Made by a program: the position numbers and the translations under genes. From Reichenbachiella versicolor (lineage in GTDB: Bacteria; Bacteroidota; Bacteroidia; Cytophagales; Cyclobacteriaceae): a DNA stretch of 64,000 nt. The notes under the pieces were generated by a model that had not been told where the DNA came from, ran no database searches, and saw only the letters and a list, made by a program, of their open reading frames with translations. Below are positions 24,358-49,843 of this stretch, piece by piece. The DNA is taken from NCBI RefSeq assembly GCF_003171675.1, contig NZ_QFZQ01000002.1:62001-126000 (forward strand). Reading direction: 5' to 3'. Each line of letters begins with the position of its first letter. Within the stretch, counting starts at the first letter, position 1.

Positions 24358-24593
24358 TGTTTTTCAAAGAAATAAAGTTGCCCTCAATAAATCACACGAA
24401 AGTTTCAAGAACAACAAATGAGTTTATATTCTAAAGTATTACAATAAAAGCAAGAAGAGAGCTTTACTGATAACCTATTCTTTGAAAGATCAAAAAAATA
24501 CCAAATTAGGGGACTATATTTTCAATAACAAATTCACTTTTTTTGAGGTCATCTATTATCTGTTATTATCCAAACACTGCTGCTTTATCTCCT

Positions 24594-26636
24594 ATGAATT
24601 ACGAAAATAACCTTGACAAACACGACTTAAAACATGAGGTCTTTTCTGACCGAGAACAGGAAAGTTACCATGATACCAAATTGGACATCATCCGAAATTA
24701 TTTTGGACTCATGGTCATGAATCCAGACGAAGCTCCCAGCATTCACCACCGGGCGATCTATCGTGAGATTAACTGGTTGCTACAGATTATAGGATATAGA
24801 TTCCGGAACTTTAATAGCCAAGAAGACTTTGAGGTCTTTCAAGGAGAAATGGATTTTCAATATAGCATGATTCAGATACCCAATCTTGACGAAGCTAGTC
24901 ATTATGGTTCATGGGTTATTGAGCATCAACTTTCTTCACAAGACAGGCTCTTCATGTCTGTTGTGATGGCGATGAGCCTTAATGATGCTTTATTCTTTGC
25001 ATTGCTTGAGTTACTCAAACTTCCCATCATATCAGTCTATGTCGGTGGACTAACTCAAAACAACGGACGTAGATTCCTACCTACGGTACAAACAATTTTA
25101 TATCTATTAGCGGGTACTGATTTAAAAAAACAAGCGGAATATCAACTCTATTTCCGGTCAAAGGCTATTCTAATCCAAAAAAGTGGCATACAGCTGAAAA
25201 GCAGTCAGTCGATGCGTACGGGGTATGACGATATCATAGACGAATGGAAAAATCTATTGGTATCTCTTGACCCTGTGGTGTGGCAGTACTTCCTAGGAGC
25301 CGACATGCCTCAGCCAGAGGAAAACAAACAGCTACCTCTGACGCTACTGGAGACCTCTTTGAGTTTGGACGAATTGGTCTTGAAGGACAGTGTGATGAAA
25401 CAATTGCAACCGATCATCGCATTTGCCCGAAATGGCCGAAATTTCTTTGAAGATCCTAATATCAGCGCTGGCTTCAAAAAAGGTTTTATTGTCCTGCTAC
25501 ATGGAGAGCCTGGTACAGGTAAAACATTGATCGCCTCCACCATCGGCAAATATGTAGGACTTAAAACCTATCAGTTGGAAGTCGCTCAAGTCATTTCTAA
25601 ATATATCGGCGAGACGTCTCAAAATATGAGTAAAGTCTTTGATGAGTTGGAGCGTACCATTAATTGGCTACAGGGAGAACCCAGCATTTTATTCGTTGAT
25701 GAGGCGGATGCCATCATGGGCAAGCGGTCAGAAGTAAAAGATAGTAAAGATCGATATGCCAATCTGGACGTATCCTTTTTGCTTCAAAGACTCGAGAAGT
25801 TTCCAGGGGTAGTAATCCTTGCTACTAACTTTCATCAAAACCTTGATGACGCATTTAAGCGTAGAATTCAAAATCAAATCTACATTCCTCAGCCTGAGGC
25901 TCCTGAACGAACTCAGCTCTGGACCAATTATTTGCCTAATCACCTCTATTACCCTTCAGAAAACTTCGCGACTCACATGGGCGAAAAGTTTGCTCTGACG
26001 GGAGCACAGATCAACAATATCCTGAAACAAGCTTCTATTATTGCATTTTCTGAGGGTGCGTACACATTGGAATTTATTCAACATATAGAGCCAGCTATCA
26101 AATCTGAATATATCAAAATGGGTAAAGTGTATCATAGACCACAGGAAATACATTATGAATACGCCTTTGATCATGGTGAATCAGAAATAGAGTCAGACCA
26201 GACAGAAAAAACTGTCAATATCAATGCAACTAAAAACAATGACCACATAGACATAGATAGCGAACTCTCTCCAATACCAAATCCCTCTTCTAATCAGCGC
26301 ATCGGTACACCTGGAAGACCCCAAAAACTGGTCAAAAGAAACAGAAGGACAGAACGAACTTCGATCATAGCCTCTAACAGGACTTTGAGCGTTAAAAGTG
26401 CTATTCATATCTGGCAGAGCAGTCTGCCAGAAGGCTATAGTTATGCTAGACGTGATTTAGCTTCTAATCTTGCCAAATTTTATGCCCTTACCCAATCACA
26501 AATCGTCTGGGTGGTAGAACGAGCTGTAAATCATGCAAAAGTTGAAGATACTTGTGTTTTGGATCAGAACAGTTCTATCAATCTAGCTCTAGAGGAAATG
26601 CGACAGCAACTGGGAAAAGTGAATTTATTGCGATAG
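24594..26636 (+). CDS. AAA+ ATPase of extracellular contractile injection system (Afp15-like) type
   Basis: The protein has 680 residues from the ATG at 24594 (an in-frame TTG at 24543 would add 17). The N-terminal region (about 1-240) with RRFLPTVQTILYLLAGTDL resembles the domain preceding the ATPase in eCIS ATPases such as Afp15. The AAA core has Walker A GEPGTGKT (304-311), Walker B ILFVDEAD (Asp369-Glu370), a sensor-1 Asn in LATNFHQNLD and Arg residues in DAFKRRI. The AAA lid (443-512) is repeated as a second lid-like segment at 607-676 after a charged linker. In eCIS the ATPase is needed for particle assembly or cargo loading. No sheath, tube or baseplate gene is in this window, so it is an orphan here. 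Confidence 0.82.
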   Translation: MNYENNLDKHDLKHEVFSDREQESYHDTKLDIIRNYFGLMVMNPDEAPSIHHRAIYREINWLLQIIGYRFRNFNSQEDFEVFQGEMDFQYSMIQIPNLDEASHYGSWVIEHQLSSQDRLFMSVVMAMSLNDALFFALLELLKLPIISVYVGGLTQNNGRRFLPTVQTILYLLAGTDLKKQAEYQLYFRSKAILIQKSGIQLKSSQSMRTGYDDIIDEWKNLLVSLDPVVWQYFLGADMPQPEENKQLPLTLLETSLSLDELVLKDSVMKQLQPIIAFARNGRNFFEDPNISAGFKKGFIVLLHGEPGTGKTLIASTIGKYVGLKTYQLEVAQVISKYIGETSQNMSKVFDELERTINWLQGEPSILFVDEADAIMGKRSEVKDSKDRYANLDVSFLLQRLEKFPGVVILATNFHQNLDDAFKRRIQNQIYIPQPEAPERTQLWTNYLPNHLYYPSENFATHMGEKFALTGAQINNILKQASIIAFSEGAYTLEFIQHIEPAIKSEYIKMGKVYHRPQEIHYEYAFDHGESEIESDQTEKTVNINATKNNDHIDIDSELSPIPNPSSNQRIGTPGRPQKLVKRNRRTERTSIIASNRTLSVKSAIHIWQSSLPEGYSYARRDLASNLAKFYALTQSQIVWVVERAVNHAKVEDTCVLDQNSSINLALEEMRQQLGKVNLLR

Positions 26637-27172
26637 TCATAATAAGTTTCTTTAAACCCAATTTCAATTCATTCTAATAGGTCAATTTCTAGAACGAGGG
26701 TACCTCAGAGGTACCCCCTAGTACCTCAAAATTCATCAAGGGTACCTCTGAGGTACCCTATTCCACCTTGGAGCTCCGTCGATGTATGTAAAAGCTTACT
26801 CAATGGAGCTCTGAGGTAGAAGTTTCTATGTTTTAGCTCCAAGCTTGGAGCTTTTAGCTCGACGTTTCGACCTCTGAGGTTAATCTATTGATCTTTTTGC
26901 TAGATGATTGCATGTTAGAGGTGGACGCTTGTATGTTTAAGATGGACGTTTGTACCTTTTAGCTTTGCGCTTGCACCTCTGAGGTCCATCATTGAACCTT
27001 TTTGCTGCATCATATAACGTTATTTTAGATAACTATGACCTGGCTCATACTATATTCAATAAATATCTCATATATTTAATCCTAGGGCGATAGGCTAATG
27101 GGTTTAGTCTCCCGACCCTTGGGTCAAAGAGCCTTACTGATATTCTTCAATTTCAAAAAATAAACCATCCCT
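26637..27172. repeat. Array of about 15 units with exact 21-bp period, plus palindromes and an inverted repeat copy
   Basis: This 536-base gap holds no convincing gene. From about 26688 to 27023 the sequence falls into units of exactly 21 bp that can be laid out without gaps. Each has the form AGST-N10-ASCT (S = G or C, with drift to ATGT, ATCT and TGCT) plus a 3-base spacer, often CTG or TTT. Starts are at 26709, 26730, 26751 and so on to 27003. The half-sites make each unit, and each junction, a pseudo-palindrome. Perfect examples are the 19-mers at 26698-26716 and 26740-26758 and the 18-mer AGCTCCAAGCTTGGAGCT at 26835-26852. Stops interrupt every frame checked. Bases 27075-27130 are an inverted partial copy of the dispersed element at 21899. 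Confidence 0.85.
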
Positions 27173-27715
27173 ATGAATGACCAAATTCACATCTGTACTT
27201 ATCACTCCCCTGTTGGCGAATTAATTATTGGTATCTATGACAATCAGGTTTGTTTGTGTGACTGGAAGTATCGCAATATGAGGGCTTCTGTTGATCAACG
27301 AATCGGTTCTAGTTTGAAAGCTCACTATATTGAGAATCTTCACCCTCTGGCAGAGGTAGTCATGAACCAACTGAACGAATATTTTAATAAATCTCGAAAG
27401 GTATTTGAATTACCTCTTCTCATGGTCGGCACAGAGTTCCAGCGGAGTGTTTGGGATATGCTGATTTCCATTCCTTATGGACAAACTCATTCATACTTGC
27501 AGCTCAGCCAACGTCTTGGCGATCCTAAAGCGATAAGGGCTGTGGCATCTGCCAACGGTGCTAATGCTCTTTCTATCATAGTTCCATGCCACAGAATAAT
27601 AGGAAGCAATGGTGATCTGACTGGCTACGCAGGGGGTTTGTCTGCTAAGCAAAAACTTCTCGAGATGGAAGGCGCTATTTTGCCCAATATGCAGGTGGAA
27701 TTGTTTGAAATGTAG
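27173..27715 (+). CDS. ogt: Methylated-DNA--protein-cysteine methyltransferase
   Basis: The 180-residue suicide repair protein moves the methyl group of O6-methylguanine (or O4-methylthymine) to its own cysteine. The active site is Cys139 in IVPCHRIIGSNG. The helix-turn-helix region (VWDMLISIPYGQTHSYLQL, with the Arg finger near AIRAVASANGANALS) and the closing GYAGGLSAKQKLLEME are all standard. The N-terminal ribonuclease-like subdomain is present (HSPVGELIIGIYDNQVCLCDW), and no Ada regulatory domain is fused. The ATG at 27173 fits the family start. It is convergent with mgsA and shares a terminator with it. Confidence 0.96.
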   Translation: MNDQIHICTYHSPVGELIIGIYDNQVCLCDWKYRNMRASVDQRIGSSLKAHYIENLHPLAEVVMNQLNEYFNKSRKVFELPLLMVGTEFQRSVWDMLISIPYGQTHSYLQLSQRLGDPKAIRAVASANGANALSIIVPCHRIIGSNGDLTGYAGGLSAKQKLLEMEGAILPNMQVELFEM

Positions 27716-31831: not shown

Positions 31832-32359
31832 TTAGCCTTTTTGATGATCCTCTGTATATCCCCAAGTGATTTCAGATTTCCACTTGCCATTCCTTATGAA
31901 GCTTTTTATAATTTGCTCACCGTCATAAGGTGTCCAATAGTGGGTTTCATTAAACTGTTCGTAGTTTGAATAAAGTTCAGAGGAATGCTTTATTAATCTA
32001 TTGATTACCAACCCAGTACGATCTAAGTTAATTTCTGGTTCGTTGATAAGATCATTGAATTCAACAAAATCGTCTACTTCTACTCCGACTAAAGCAAACC
32101 TGAAATCAGGAGCAGATTTCAGTATATCATACAATTTTAAACCTAGTTCAGACATTTCAATACATTGTTCCTTTGTATCAATTCCAGTTGTTGATGTCCC
32201 ATTTGGAGTTATTGCACACCCATCTGTTGCTGTGAAAGATTGTAATTGATATTCTTTTCCATTCCAATTAATTGATCCATGATTCAAAAAACACTGTTCA
32301 ATCACTCTTGTCTGTTCAAGGTTTCCTGTCTCTATATATATGGAGAAAATTAGTGCCAT
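31832..32359 (-). CDS. Hypothetical protein
   Basis: This 175-residue soluble protein is not recognised. It is acidic and looks alpha/beta, with motifs such as IYIETGNLEQTRVIEQCF near the N-terminus and DFRFALVGVEVDDFVEF in the middle, and a Trp-rich C-terminal part (HYWTPYDG, KWKSEITWGY). There is no signal peptide or membrane segment. The start ATG at 32359 is clean. The small size, acidity and isolated position in an accessory zone would fit an immunity-type or orphan protein, but nothing in the sequence proves this. Confidence 0.6.
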   Translation of the reverse strand: MALIFSIYIETGNLEQTRVIEQCFLNHGSINWNGKEYQLQSFTATDGCAITPNGTSTTGIDTKEQCIEMSELGLKLYDILKSAPDFRFALVGVEVDDFVEFNDLINEPEINLDRTGLVINRLIKHSSELYSNYEQFNETHYWTPYDGEQIIKSFIRNGKWKSEITWGYTEDHQKG

Positions 32360-32995: not shown

Positions 32996-33826
32996 TTAAT
33001 TATTCTTAAGCTGAAGTATTTCATGTTCAGCTTTCTCTAGTCGTTCTAAAAGTTCAATTTGATACAGAGTTAGTTCTTCGATCTTCTTCAAAAGCCTCAT
33101 GTTCATATCTCCAATATCAATCCCATTTTCACTGATTTCAGAAGCTGAAGGAATTTCTGGAAGATGTTTATTCTTTTTAATGTATTTTTTTGTCTCACTA
33201 AGAGTTCGGAGCTCATAATCTTGTTCGAATACGTAATCTGGCACACTTATATCTGACAGAACTTTTATTTCAGTTGCTCTTATTTGACCTTCCACAGAAA
33301 GCTTGGATTGAGGATTTGTTGTACCAATACCAATATTACCGCTTGCATTAATGTAAAGTCTTGTATTAGGGTGGCTTCTATCGTTTGAGCCTGTCTGCAA
33401 AGCAATACTATGACCATGAAATAGTGTCAATCTTTTATATTGTCCATCGTCACCAGTTATCCCTCCTGCAAAACCTAATTTTTCGGGAAACAGAATCTTA
33501 TTATATTCAGAATCAAATTGGAAATTACCGACGACATGTAGTTTTTCAGAAGGCCGGGTGGTTCCAAGTCCAATGTTACCACTTGCATTAATGTAAAGTC
33601 TTGTATTAGGGTGGCTTCTATCGTTTGAGCCTGTCTGCAAAGCAATACTATGACCATGAAACAATGTTAACCTTTTATATTGCCCGTCATCACCGGTTAT
33701 CCCTCCTCCATATCCAAGATTGATTGGCCATAATAATTTATTGTATTCACTGGTAAAAACCTTGTCTTGACCAAAAGTCTGAGTAATAATACTGATGAAA
33801 ATTGCTGCTAAAAATATCTTTTTCAT
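32996..33826 (-). CDS. Secreted tail-fibre-like protein with a tandem internal repeat and coiled-coil C-terminus
   Basis: The 276-residue protein has a signal peptide (MKKIFLAAIFISIITQTFG). Two tandem 80-residue repeats follow (about 26-105 and 106-185), each reading SEYNK-LGF/LGYxGGITGDDGQYKR, then LTLFHGHSIALQTGSNDRS and LYINASGNIG-GTT. The C-terminal part (PDYVFEQDYELRTLSE, HLPEIPSASEI, NMRLLKKIEELTLYQIELLE) is a pattern I know from many secreted Bacteroidota fibre-like proteins, where it ends in a trimer-type coiled coil. A structural surface fibre is the best guess. At DNA level the two repeats share an 80-bp identical run (33342-33421 and 33582-33661). Confidence 0.75.
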   Translation of the reverse strand: MKKIFLAAIFISIITQTFGQDKVFTSEYNKLLWPINLGYGGGITGDDGQYKRLTLFHGHSIALQTGSNDRSHPNTRLYINASGNIGLGTTRPSEKLHVVGNFQFDSEYNKILFPEKLGFAGGITGDDGQYKRLTLFHGHSIALQTGSNDRSHPNTRLYINASGNIGIGTTNPQSKLSVEGQIRATEIKVLSDISVPDYVFEQDYELRTLSETKKYIKKNKHLPEIPSASEISENGIDIGDMNMRLLKKIEELTLYQIELLERLEKAEHEILQLKNN

Positions 33827-34753: not shown

Positions 34754-35915
34754 TGGTCTATAACGTAGAGAATAGATAAAATATGCCACTTATTCACAAT
34801 ATATCAATTTTAAAACTATTTACTAATTCCCTTGAAAATAGGCTATCAAAAACAACAGCTCTCAAAAGAAATATGAATTTCGTCGAGCAAATACTAGCCC
34901 GTCCTGTTCAAAAAAATATGCTTAAAAGAGATTCTAAAAAAAATATGCGAGGTGAACGGTAAAAGAATTAACGCGAAAAGTTTTCTAAAAAAAATATGCG
35001 TGACTTAAAAATAAACTATGCATATATGCGTAACCACCTTGTGCATAAAAATATGCGCAACCACTCTACGCATAAAAATATGCACGACCCCTTTACGCAT
35101 ATATGCGTGGTAGTCTACTGACAATATGCGTAAGTAAAAAAAATCAATCATGCATAATTTTTTGCTGACGAAAAAAATATGCACAGTCGAAGAAACATTT
35201 CACGCATAATCCAATTCTGTATTAGTTCTAGTTTTTGTGATTCAATTGGAAGTTTAAAACAACTGCTAATCAAATCGTCTTCGCGAGCGCAGCGTGGCGA
35301 TCTATTCAGGTGAGGTATTGTATCGCTTTAGCAGATTACTTCGTCATACCTCCTCGCAATAGACGTTGTCTTTATAAGTTCAAGTATAGAAAGATCTATA
35401 GACCAATAGACTCCTACTCGCTACAGAATAAAAATACAACCACCGCAACATTCGTCATCCCAAAAAACAATGATGCGAAAGCAAGAATTGGTTATTTGGG
35501 ATCTCTCAGTTAATGTACAAATAGCCAATCACCATAACGGACAGATAGATCCCTGATAGCTTTTCTTCACTCTCGTCAGAAAACCTTCTGGGATGACGAT
35601 TATTCGTGCTCAGTGGTGACAGATTACTTCGTCGTGCCTCCTCGCAATAGACGTTGTTTTTAAGTTCAAGTATAGTAAAATACCCTTCAATGAATAATAG
35701 TCTTCGCGAGCGGAGTGCAGCGATCTATTCAGATGAGGAGTACTTCTACCGTTTAAAAAATAGACCTAAAACATTGAGATTAAATGTTAAATACATTTTG
35801 ACCTAGTCAGATGAAACCAATGGACTATCAAGACGTGATTAAAATATCTTGAAAGATTGGTGGGTTACGAATGTATTCGCTAATTATACCGCTTGAATTA
35901 TCAATTAATAAATAC
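34754..35915. repeat. Long intergenic region with an ATATGC motif array and REP-like elements
   Basis: No real gene was found in 1162 bases. From about 34911 to 35208 there are about ten copies of A-run-ATATGC(G/A), at 34916, 34943, 34994, 35024, 35051, 35078, 35101, 35124 and 35177, with inverted GCATA half-sites. Two identical GCATAAAAATATGC palindromes lie 27 bp apart (35043-35056 and 35070-35083), and ACGCATATATGCGT (35095-35108) is perfect. Further right are REP-like units: TCGTCTTCGCGAGCG...GCGATCTATTCAG at 35275-35390 and again around 35700, CAGATTACTTCGTC(A/G)T...CCTCCTCGCAATAGACG at 35332-35366 and 35618-35653, and a CGTCATCCC...GGGATGACG pair at about 35453-35600. Confidence 0.75.
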
Positions 35916-49740: not shown

Positions 49741-49843
49741 AAGTTCGAGTAATAAGGAATTTAAAACAAATTCCCCTTTTAAAACAAATTCCCCTATCCT
49801 AACGGTTCACTTTATTTTACATCAATTAAGGAAATATTATTCA

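Follow-up and report, generated by a model that had tools for sequence, protein, structure and literature searches.

The window, a stretch of 64,000 nucleotides from Reichenbachiella versicolor, carries an AAA ATPase gene followed by an O6-methylguanine-DNA methyltransferase gene, and between them lies a 336-bp array that can be written without a gap as lines of 21 bp (Table 1). A preliminary description had reported about 15 units starting at 26688, in consecutive 21-bp lines with neither insertion nor deletion. The strict phase was borne out, over 16 lines, but the first line (26688) matched the consensus in its second half only. The same description had proposed comparing the autocorrelation at lag 21 with shuffled controls: identity at this lag was 0.530, against 0.258 ± 0.024 in 2000 dinucleotide shuffles (maximum 0.362), and since none of the 2000 reached 0.530 a chance repeat was ruled out. 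Lags 42, 63, 84 and 105 were likewise high (0.49-0.56) and the remaining multiples of 7 were slightly raised (0.34-0.40). When the 64 kb were scanned in 336-bp pieces at a step of 21, the top twelve lag-21 scores all overlapped the array. The sole other place above 0.45 among the positions listed, at ~32088-32200 (0.46-0.49), lies inside a 175-aa ORF (31832-32359) and probably reflects chance in coding DNA.

Table 1 Features of the window and of the related arrays in the same genome
Feature	Position	Strand	Remarks
AAA ATPase, upstream neighbour	24543..26636	+	ends 51 bp before the array; outside the module
Array, 16 lines of 21 bp	26688..27023	+	end palindromes first, then units AGSTN10ASCTNNN, as in the family consensus
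First end palindrome GGGTACCTCAGAGGTACCC	26698..26716	.	conserved end mark of the array class; relatives in 65 loci
Junction palindrome ACCTCWGAGGT (spacer centre)	26702..26712	.	further copies at 26744-26754, 26870-26880 and 26975-26985
Second end palindrome GGGTACCTCTGAGGTACCC	26740..26758	.	42 bp after the first
Unit with perfect 18-bp palindrome AGCTCCAAGCTTGGAGCT	26835..26852	.	unit-centre dyad; from the sequence
O6-methylguanine-DNA methyltransferase, downstream neighbour	27173..27715	+	outside the module
Array 2 of the same genome	contig C20 near 305,740-306,085 (L002 1491-1826)		DNA/profile search
Array 3 of the same genome	contig C13 near 780,030-780,304 (L010)	opposite orientation	DNA/profile search
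Linked gene at array 3	L010 2037-2513		immediately before the array

A pseudo-dyad had been claimed at each unit and each junction. Among 42 dyad phases scored, the two with the highest Watson-Crick fractions (0.55 and 0.47) were separated by exactly 10.5 bp, one at the unit centre and the other at the 3-bp spacer; the next two phases scored 0.37 and 0.36, and the 40 phases other than the top two averaged 0.23. The array thus shows both traits of the class described below, a 21-bp period and a dyad centre each 10.5 bp. Its left end is marked by two perfect 19-bp palindromes (GGGTACCTCWGAGGTACCC), at 26698-26716 and 26740-26758, and the end palindrome of the class, GGGTACYTCNGARGTACCC, is found at both. 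A one-off variant of the junction palindrome occurs at 26807-26817. Judged by eye, several arrays of the class have inverted-repeat-like sequences at either end; the window array lacks one at its right end. The window array is confirmed as a real, strictly 21-bp-phased run of near-palindromes.

All six reading frames contain stops (5-8 per frame, longest open stretch 52 aa), so the 21-bp phase is not a reading-frame effect, and a coding frame or decayed gene was rejected for the window array. For the class as a whole, a decayed gene or coding repeat is almost certainly the wrong explanation: 21 is divisible by three and in some arrays more than one frame is open, but the frames differ between arrays, both strands are equally structured and the window array is stopped in all six. 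The preliminary description had set its claims against two outcomes, a missing lag-21 excess and a decayed coding gene; the excess is present and no sign of such decay was seen. CRISPR, which it had discounted, was ruled out, as the units diverge throughout and a repeat search found no constant repeat. A simple heptamer (STRR-like) repeat does not describe the array either, because identity at lag 21 greatly exceeds that at lag 7 in the window and is also the higher of the two in most of the 65 loci surveyed below.

The preliminary description had placed the array behind an eCIS-like ATPase. The closer homologues of this AAA ATPase in the genus are just 31-40% identical, and seven loci of homologues in the genus show no such array, their lag-21 identity (0.37-0.44) being close to that at other lags. 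The ATPase was therefore rejected as a partner of the array; the link looks incidental and the gene appears to be merely a neighbour. The methyltransferase was rejected as well, four orthologues (56-62% identity) being without a lag-21 array (≤0.40), and none of the queried window neighbour genes was found within ~1.5 kb of these four. Other repeats in the window are a ~50-aa segment (GGITGDDGQYKRLTLFHGHSIALQTGSNDRSHPNTRLYINASGNIG...) that occurs twice in a 276-aa protein (32996-33826, minus strand), a short tandem repeat of 27 bp x 2.9 (35024-35101) and a perfect 18 bp x 2 tandem repeat (49760-49795).

Relatives of the array across Bacteroidota

DNA and profile searches of the R. versicolor genome, the latter a step that the preliminary description had proposed, found two arrays beside that of the window, three in total. 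Each starts with a GGTACC-type palindrome and keeps the 21-bp phase. The dyads of array 3 (0.43 and 0.39, 10.5 bp apart) are weaker than those of the window array; at array 2, a single dyad centre is prominent (0.49) and three centres share second place at 0.40. Within the bacterial family of the host, model R2, a profile built from 25 four-unit pieces, matched 47 of 295 genomes and 24 of 84 genera (E≤1e-4). Some of these matches are plain 7-bp arrays or due to chance. Run score 80 was reached by 23 of 47 loci arranged in units (7 initial and 40 later ones, with the three of R. versicolor among them), one of the 23, L104, being a 7-bp array. Strict arrays comprised about 10-36 units of 21 bp. 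An R1 match in G013 was by eye ordinary coding DNA, and the R2 matches L100, L102, L104, L111, L112 and L114 were discarded as 7-bp arrays or chance. The plain 7-bp arrays of this bacterial family (AGCTTCT, AGCTTGG and AGCTTTT; L102, L104, L112, L114) have a unit of which 21 is three times the length. Marinoscillum furvescens carries a second, very regular 21-bp array of CTTCCGTCCGTTGGTTGGAGT type (L121 3328-3680, G014:C27; lag-21 identity 0.88) about 3.4 kb from its first (L053), which by eye starts with homologous end units.

The end palindrome extended the survey beyond this bacterial family. The palindrome GGGGTACYTCNGARGTACCCC was found in 65 stretches of a genome contig collection of 84,980 species, which possibly does not include the R. 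versicolor genome. By name, sixty of these loci are from Bacteroidota (Aquiflexum, Cognataquiflexum, Algoriphagus, Maribellus, Sunxiuqinia, Carboxylicivirga, Hymenobacter and others), and the remaining five are labelled as two MAGs of Spirochaetaceae, one each of Caldithrix and Micrococcus, and Dyella flava. Lag-21 identity within 400 bp of the palindrome reached 0.46 in 53 of the 65 and 0.5 in 51, whereas 195 control places taken from these loci yielded 4 and 0, respectively (maximum 0.49); those below 0.46 included Dyella (0.33), Micrococcus (0.38) and Caldithrix (0.44). No genome held more than six end-palindrome loci. The window array therefore belongs to a family of arrays spread over Bacteroidota and is not specific to its locus. 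The spurious heptad-like frames of other Bacteroidota, which the preliminary description had suspected to be related, are the same array class.

Could such arrays be functionless satellites, made by slippage of 7-bp or 21-bp repeats? The profile that detects the 21-bp arrays also picks up plain 7-bp ones (AGCTTTT type), and the mild rise at multiples of 7 in the window array points the same way. However, the 21-bp phase is strict and free of indels across 10-36 diverged units, the end palindromes are conserved, and lag 7 exceeds the best of lags 5-30 (multiples of 7 excluded) in only 9 of the 65 loci. Together with the dyad covariation and the side-specific gene link described below, this makes neutral slippage very unlikely.

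A protein gene before the arrays and gene-less copies

Nine array loci, array 3 of R. versicolor among them, carry a gene of one protein family directly before the array, encoding proteins of ~156 aa that are 43-83% identical. A profile of these nine members detected the gene in 31 of the 112 loci fetched by array or palindrome, a count that includes the nine seeds and takes the overlapping L093 and L166 twice (one of nine overlapping locus pairs among the fetched loci); some of the 112 have no good array. The 3' end of the gene faced the array in all 31. The end palindrome lay at the side far from the gene in L170, L177, L187 and L190, and beside the gene in L164, L172, L174, L179, L185, L200 and L206. 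No family gene was found in the other 81 loci within the limited flanks examined, and one genome (G005) has arrays and no copy of the gene.

Searches by protein alone gave the same polarity. The gene was detected in 14 of 59 relatives and, phylum-wide, in 31 of 395 genomes and 22 of 171 genera, fragments included in both cases. At 28 loci picked by protein alone, each the best match of one of 28 phylum-wide genomes, lag-21 identity of at least 0.5 within 1.5 kb was found downstream in 17 and upstream in 2, one of which (L269) scores higher at lag 16; the best of 12 other lags reached 0.5 downstream in 9 and upstream in 2. Eleven loci did not reach 0.5 downstream at lag 21. Ten of the strongest 11 (L269-L279) did, with L271 higher at another lag and L272 nearly equal. 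Among 11 loci from the 59 relatives, the count was 7 downstream and 0 upstream; four of these (L254, L255, L256, L259) were already known by their array, L257 is a 7-bp repeat, and four fragmentary matches (L265-L268) lie outside the counts. In seven multi-copy genomes, 15 of 19 gene copies had lag-21 identity of at least 0.5 downstream and 2 upstream, with L297 doubtful (A-rich, lag 20 higher) and some overlap with the 28-locus set; the letters of 14 arrays compared from these genomes differ. In one of them (G655) two gene copies, L297 and L299, share 1.44 kb at 91% identity, from ~320 bp before to ~555 bp after the gene. This stretch is a duplicated gene unit, and the match stops near the start of the L297 repeat.

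A second conserved neighbour of the gene, widely shared among the loci examined, was not found: the two largest recurrent neighbour groups shown were spurious frames that belong to the arrays or run antisense to the gene, and others occurred in 3-4 loci only. An AbiGi-type antitoxin gene adjoins the array at L088 (4195-4965, minus strand), and a large gene common to L087, L124 and L211, restriction-modification-like by eye, lies beyond the array; these are possibly defence-rich sites.

Searches of Pfam, NCBIfam, PHROGs, PADLOC and PDB sequences with the family protein were without useful matches. Nine members searched against Pfam gave none at E≤0.001 (the best, CDC14 at 0.0022, being at chance level); of four searched against PADLOC, three had none and the fourth a single match at chance level (E 0.02). 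AlphaFold2 modelling of 18 members (mean pLDDT 89, pTM 0.68) predicted an all-helical protein with five helices, one of 55 residues, and Foldseek returned no relative (best E 4.4 in PDB and 0.77 in BFVD). Residues invariant in the 18 members include R42, P46, K47, F55, P71, D82, D105, G111, Y122, P134 and F147, and each of the 18 sequences is slightly acidic.

The sole copy of the gene in R. versicolor lies beside array 3 (C13:779,536), ~690 kb from the window array on the same contig, and the family HMM had no match in the 64-kb window at E≤1. The window array is a gene-less copy of a gene-linked array class. Neither its nature as a dispersed element with copies at unrelated loci nor the tie of the class to the 3' side of one protein family had been foreseen in the preliminary description. 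The module, a helical protein gene with a downstream 21-bp dyad array and gene-less copies elsewhere, is very probably real.

Copying of arrays was seen most directly in Maribellus. One 13-unit array occurs, unit for unit, at two sites of one genome, L190 and L189 (91% over 248 bp), and the same 13 units recur in another genome at L208 (90% over 258 bp to L190). The flanks of the three look unrelated; the L190 copy is gene-linked and the L189 copy gene-less. Arrays are thus copied to other places without the gene. At the L189 site, M. luteus has the orthologous array, with 95% identity across the site, and M. sediminis has just ~97 bp between aligned flanks, too little for an array. In Maribellus sp. 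YY47 the same site (L317 ~1286-1500, reverse complement) holds an unrelated 21-bp-phased sequence (lag 21 0.46, next lag 0.29; dyads weak, 0.38), which would have arisen by replacement or by independent gain. Array 2 of R. versicolor lies between a methyltransferase gene and a DinB gene, a convergent pair adjacent in four of seven genus mates. DinB lies ~7, 15, 88 and 373 bp past the end of the methyltransferase match in these mates versus ~770 bp in R. versicolor, and the 373-bp gap (G005) holds a 21-bp array of different letters with dyads 10.5 bp apart. Arrays lay between convergent genes in 9 of 23 cases versus 33 of 115 background pairs, no clear enrichment.

Discrete copies at unrelated loci could mark a selfish, MITE- or REPIN-like mobile element, moved with the aid of the linked protein, whose gene-less copies would be passengers of no benefit to the cell. 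The wide gap between the convergent genes at array 2 as against the gaps of ~7, 15 and 88 bp in three genus mates, the patchy distribution of the gene and the ends of several arrays, which by eye begin GGGGTACTTC-like and end GAAGTACCCC-like, are consistent with this. We nevertheless consider it rather unlikely: copy number is low (three found in R. versicolor, at most six palindrome loci per genome), no known transposase family was matched by the protein, and one orthologous site carries mutually unrelated 21-bp-phased sequences in related species, for which simple insertion does not account. Those sequences (Maribellus CM-23/M. luteus versus YY47), a mostly constant geometry with free letters, and paralogous genes of one genome with arrays of different letters would suit a protein that makes the DNA itself. 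Snap-back copying of a one-turn hairpin would then yield alternating half-units (h, h') of any sequence, at times rewritten wholesale. Yet no polymerase or nuclease domain was found in the protein, the dyads of the YY47 sequence are weak, and other recombination could swap arrays as well, so that we rate such synthesis as highly improbable.

Dyad geometry and possible modes of action

Dyad geometry was compared over the 38 of 65 palindrome arrays that passed a unit rule (558 units); the other 27 were dropped for contig-end cuts, fewer than 6 units or a step identity under threshold. Watson-Crick pairs made up a fraction of 0.455 at the unit centre, 0.476 at the spacer centre and 0.16-0.30 at 28 other centres. 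After column-wise shuffling of letters within each array, pairing remained above expectation at both (z 3.4 at the unit centre and 7.8 at the spacer centre; cells of related arrays are not independent). The covariation excess includes positions 19/21, with one base between (z 7.4), and the adjacent positions 9/10 (z 3.9), and cannot therefore come from stem-loops alone. Covariation through the dyad centres fits a two-fold symmetric constraint on duplex DNA, as would be expected of DNA seen by a symmetric partner. On the contrary side, a control centre (S=26) also shows covariation (z 4.0), though its pairing is just 0.28, individual pairs inside both dyads fall below expectation (5/14, z -2.7; 10/30, z -3.0), and array-internal copying could leave equal traces. 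Within-unit covariation by itself was weak (z 0.5 over 118 units, 1.7 over 346 units).

Letters were AGCCG...CGGCT in a Hymenobacter array, TGAATTAATTCA in a Bacteroidales MAG and AAGGTACCCGGGTACCTTCGG, ACTTGAACCAGTTCAGTTCCG and TTTGGATGTTGGTTACGGAAT in other lineages. Letters vary by lineage and paralogue; the period and the dyads mostly persist. The earlier suggestion of selection on spacing rather than on letters agrees with this persistence across Bacteroidota, through which the letters change completely. In gene-linked arrays, the two best dyads were separated by exactly half a period in 13 of 16 chosen arrays, 9 of 14 from multi-copy genomes and 34 of 48 (overlapping sets; the chance for one array is ~1 in 41), and in the remaining 14 of the 48 they did not. 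The period of 21 bp is not absolute: a gene-linked array behind a distant family member (L280, G514) has a 22-bp period, and with its dyads 11 bp apart the half-period rule holds there too.

The reading that we favour, at a probability of roughly 0.45, is that the array acts as double-stranded DNA, a putative platform for a symmetric protein assembly that would sit once per helical turn, with all dyads on one face of B-DNA. Most simply the linked protein would itself form the assembly, a role for which its predicted 55-residue helix would be suited. The assembly would read one-turn symmetry and a lineage-specific half-site, because of which protein and array letters would drift together while the spacing stays. 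Gene-less copies would be extra sites served in trans, spreading as REP sequences do with a RAYT gene, and the window array would be such a site, served from the gene ~690 kb away on the same contig. Against this mechanism, the slightly acidic protein is not a typical DNA binder and has no Foldseek relative. Omega/parS heptad arrays and plasmid iterons are likewise regularly spaced DNA arrays coated by proteins, but the letters of their sites are kept, whereas those of the present arrays vary, and no ribbon-helix-helix or Rep domain was found in the family protein.

Evidence on strand asymmetry is mixed. The linked gene reads the consensus strand of the array in 3 of 10 cases and the opposite strand in 7 (four of the ten arrays have run scores below 80, and orientation is weak in low-scoring arrays), so no strand is fixed. 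On the two strands predicted folding was similarly stronger than in dinucleotide shuffles (mean z -4.4 and -4.6, 22 arrays) and than in column shuffles (mean z -1.8 and -2.0). These results bear on the possibility that the array is transcribed with the gene and works as a chain of short hairpins, closing the mRNA at its 3' end or forming a separate RNA, to which the protein would bind, in partial likeness to the ToxI repeats that serve ToxN. In type III toxin-antitoxin systems such as ToxIN, a small protein gene lies beside tandem repeats that precede it and act as RNA; one small gene beside a repeat array is the likeness, but the present arrays follow the gene and fold equally on both strands. 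The strong folding, the gene 3' end turned towards the array in 31 of 31 loci, a preceding gene (mostly not the linked one) on the strand of the array in 18 of 23 and, as a mild sign, a share of G.T pairs at the dyads of the gene strand that exceeded the control in 24 of 34 arrays (z 3.5, from cells that are not independent) would agree with an RNA. An RNA role is nonetheless unlikely in our judgement: the folding gain is equal on both strands, the gene-strand advantage did not go beyond shuffles (15 of 34 arrays), the gene reads the consensus strand in so few cases, covariation occurs at positions impossible in a stem, several arrays lie by eye beyond terminator-like hairpins, and Rfam 15 gave no match at gathering score in 20 loci (128,978 bases). 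We read the array as acting as DNA first, an RNA role being less likely.

Palindromic repeats beside a small gene recall the REPtron, REP/BIME with TnpAREP (RAYT; PMC8266576), which combines a small low-copy gene with adjoining palindromic repeats and gene-less intergenic copies. Dispersed gene-less palindromic copies occur here in R. versicolor (one gene, three arrays) and in Maribellus. In contrast, the family protein falls outside the Y1/HUH transposases by Pfam (Y1_Tnp) and is predicted to be all-helical, and the arrays are strict 21-bp runs with a dyad each 10.5 bp, few in copies and 3' of the gene. The module is somewhat like REP/RAYT but not a member, since an HUH protein is absent. The BrickBuilt MITE of Porphyromonas gingivalis has 23-nt repeats, a leader and tail and ends GAGACCTTTGCA; its authors report no BLASTn match outside P. 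gingivalis, and the sections of the article consulted mention no linked protein gene (PMC4596501). According to these sections it shares with the present arrays an origin in Bacteroidota, an intergenic position, short tandem repeats of fixed length in an inverted-repeat element and the lack of an internal transposase (PMC4596501). TAACTGA heptamer repeats, on the evidence of the portion of PMC4679880 used here, occur in Beggiatoaceae, Cyanobacteria and five Bacteroidetes, with long arrays in some Bacteroidetes, and in the main genome studied lie mostly just before start codons. They too are tandem and intergenic, but consist of a fixed 7-mer and not of 21-bp units. A search of titles and abstracts, with most subscription papers outside its reach, found no publication on 21-bp dyad arrays or this protein family.

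Since many arrays of the family directly follow a gene for a small helical protein that is so far undescribed, the window array may be part of an unrecognised protein-plus-DNA-array system. A wider proposal, which we hold to be doubtful, is that geometry and not sequence is the conserved signal of a phylum-wide system, in which the helical protein would recognise or help to write DNA of one-turn inverted half-units and arrays would be rewritten or swapped between species and copied about the genome. If the interpretation given here is right, a recurrent intergenic DNA of Bacteroidota that yields spurious heptad-like frames would be half of a conserved two-part system with an undescribed protein. 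It would also pose a directly testable question, namely what makes use of DNA that carries a dyad at every helical turn in an otherwise nearly unconstrained sequence; candidate answers are a new scaffold, for the nucleoid or for regulation, a mobile palindrome system of a new kind that dispenses with an HUH enzyme, or a mechanism that produces repeated DNA.
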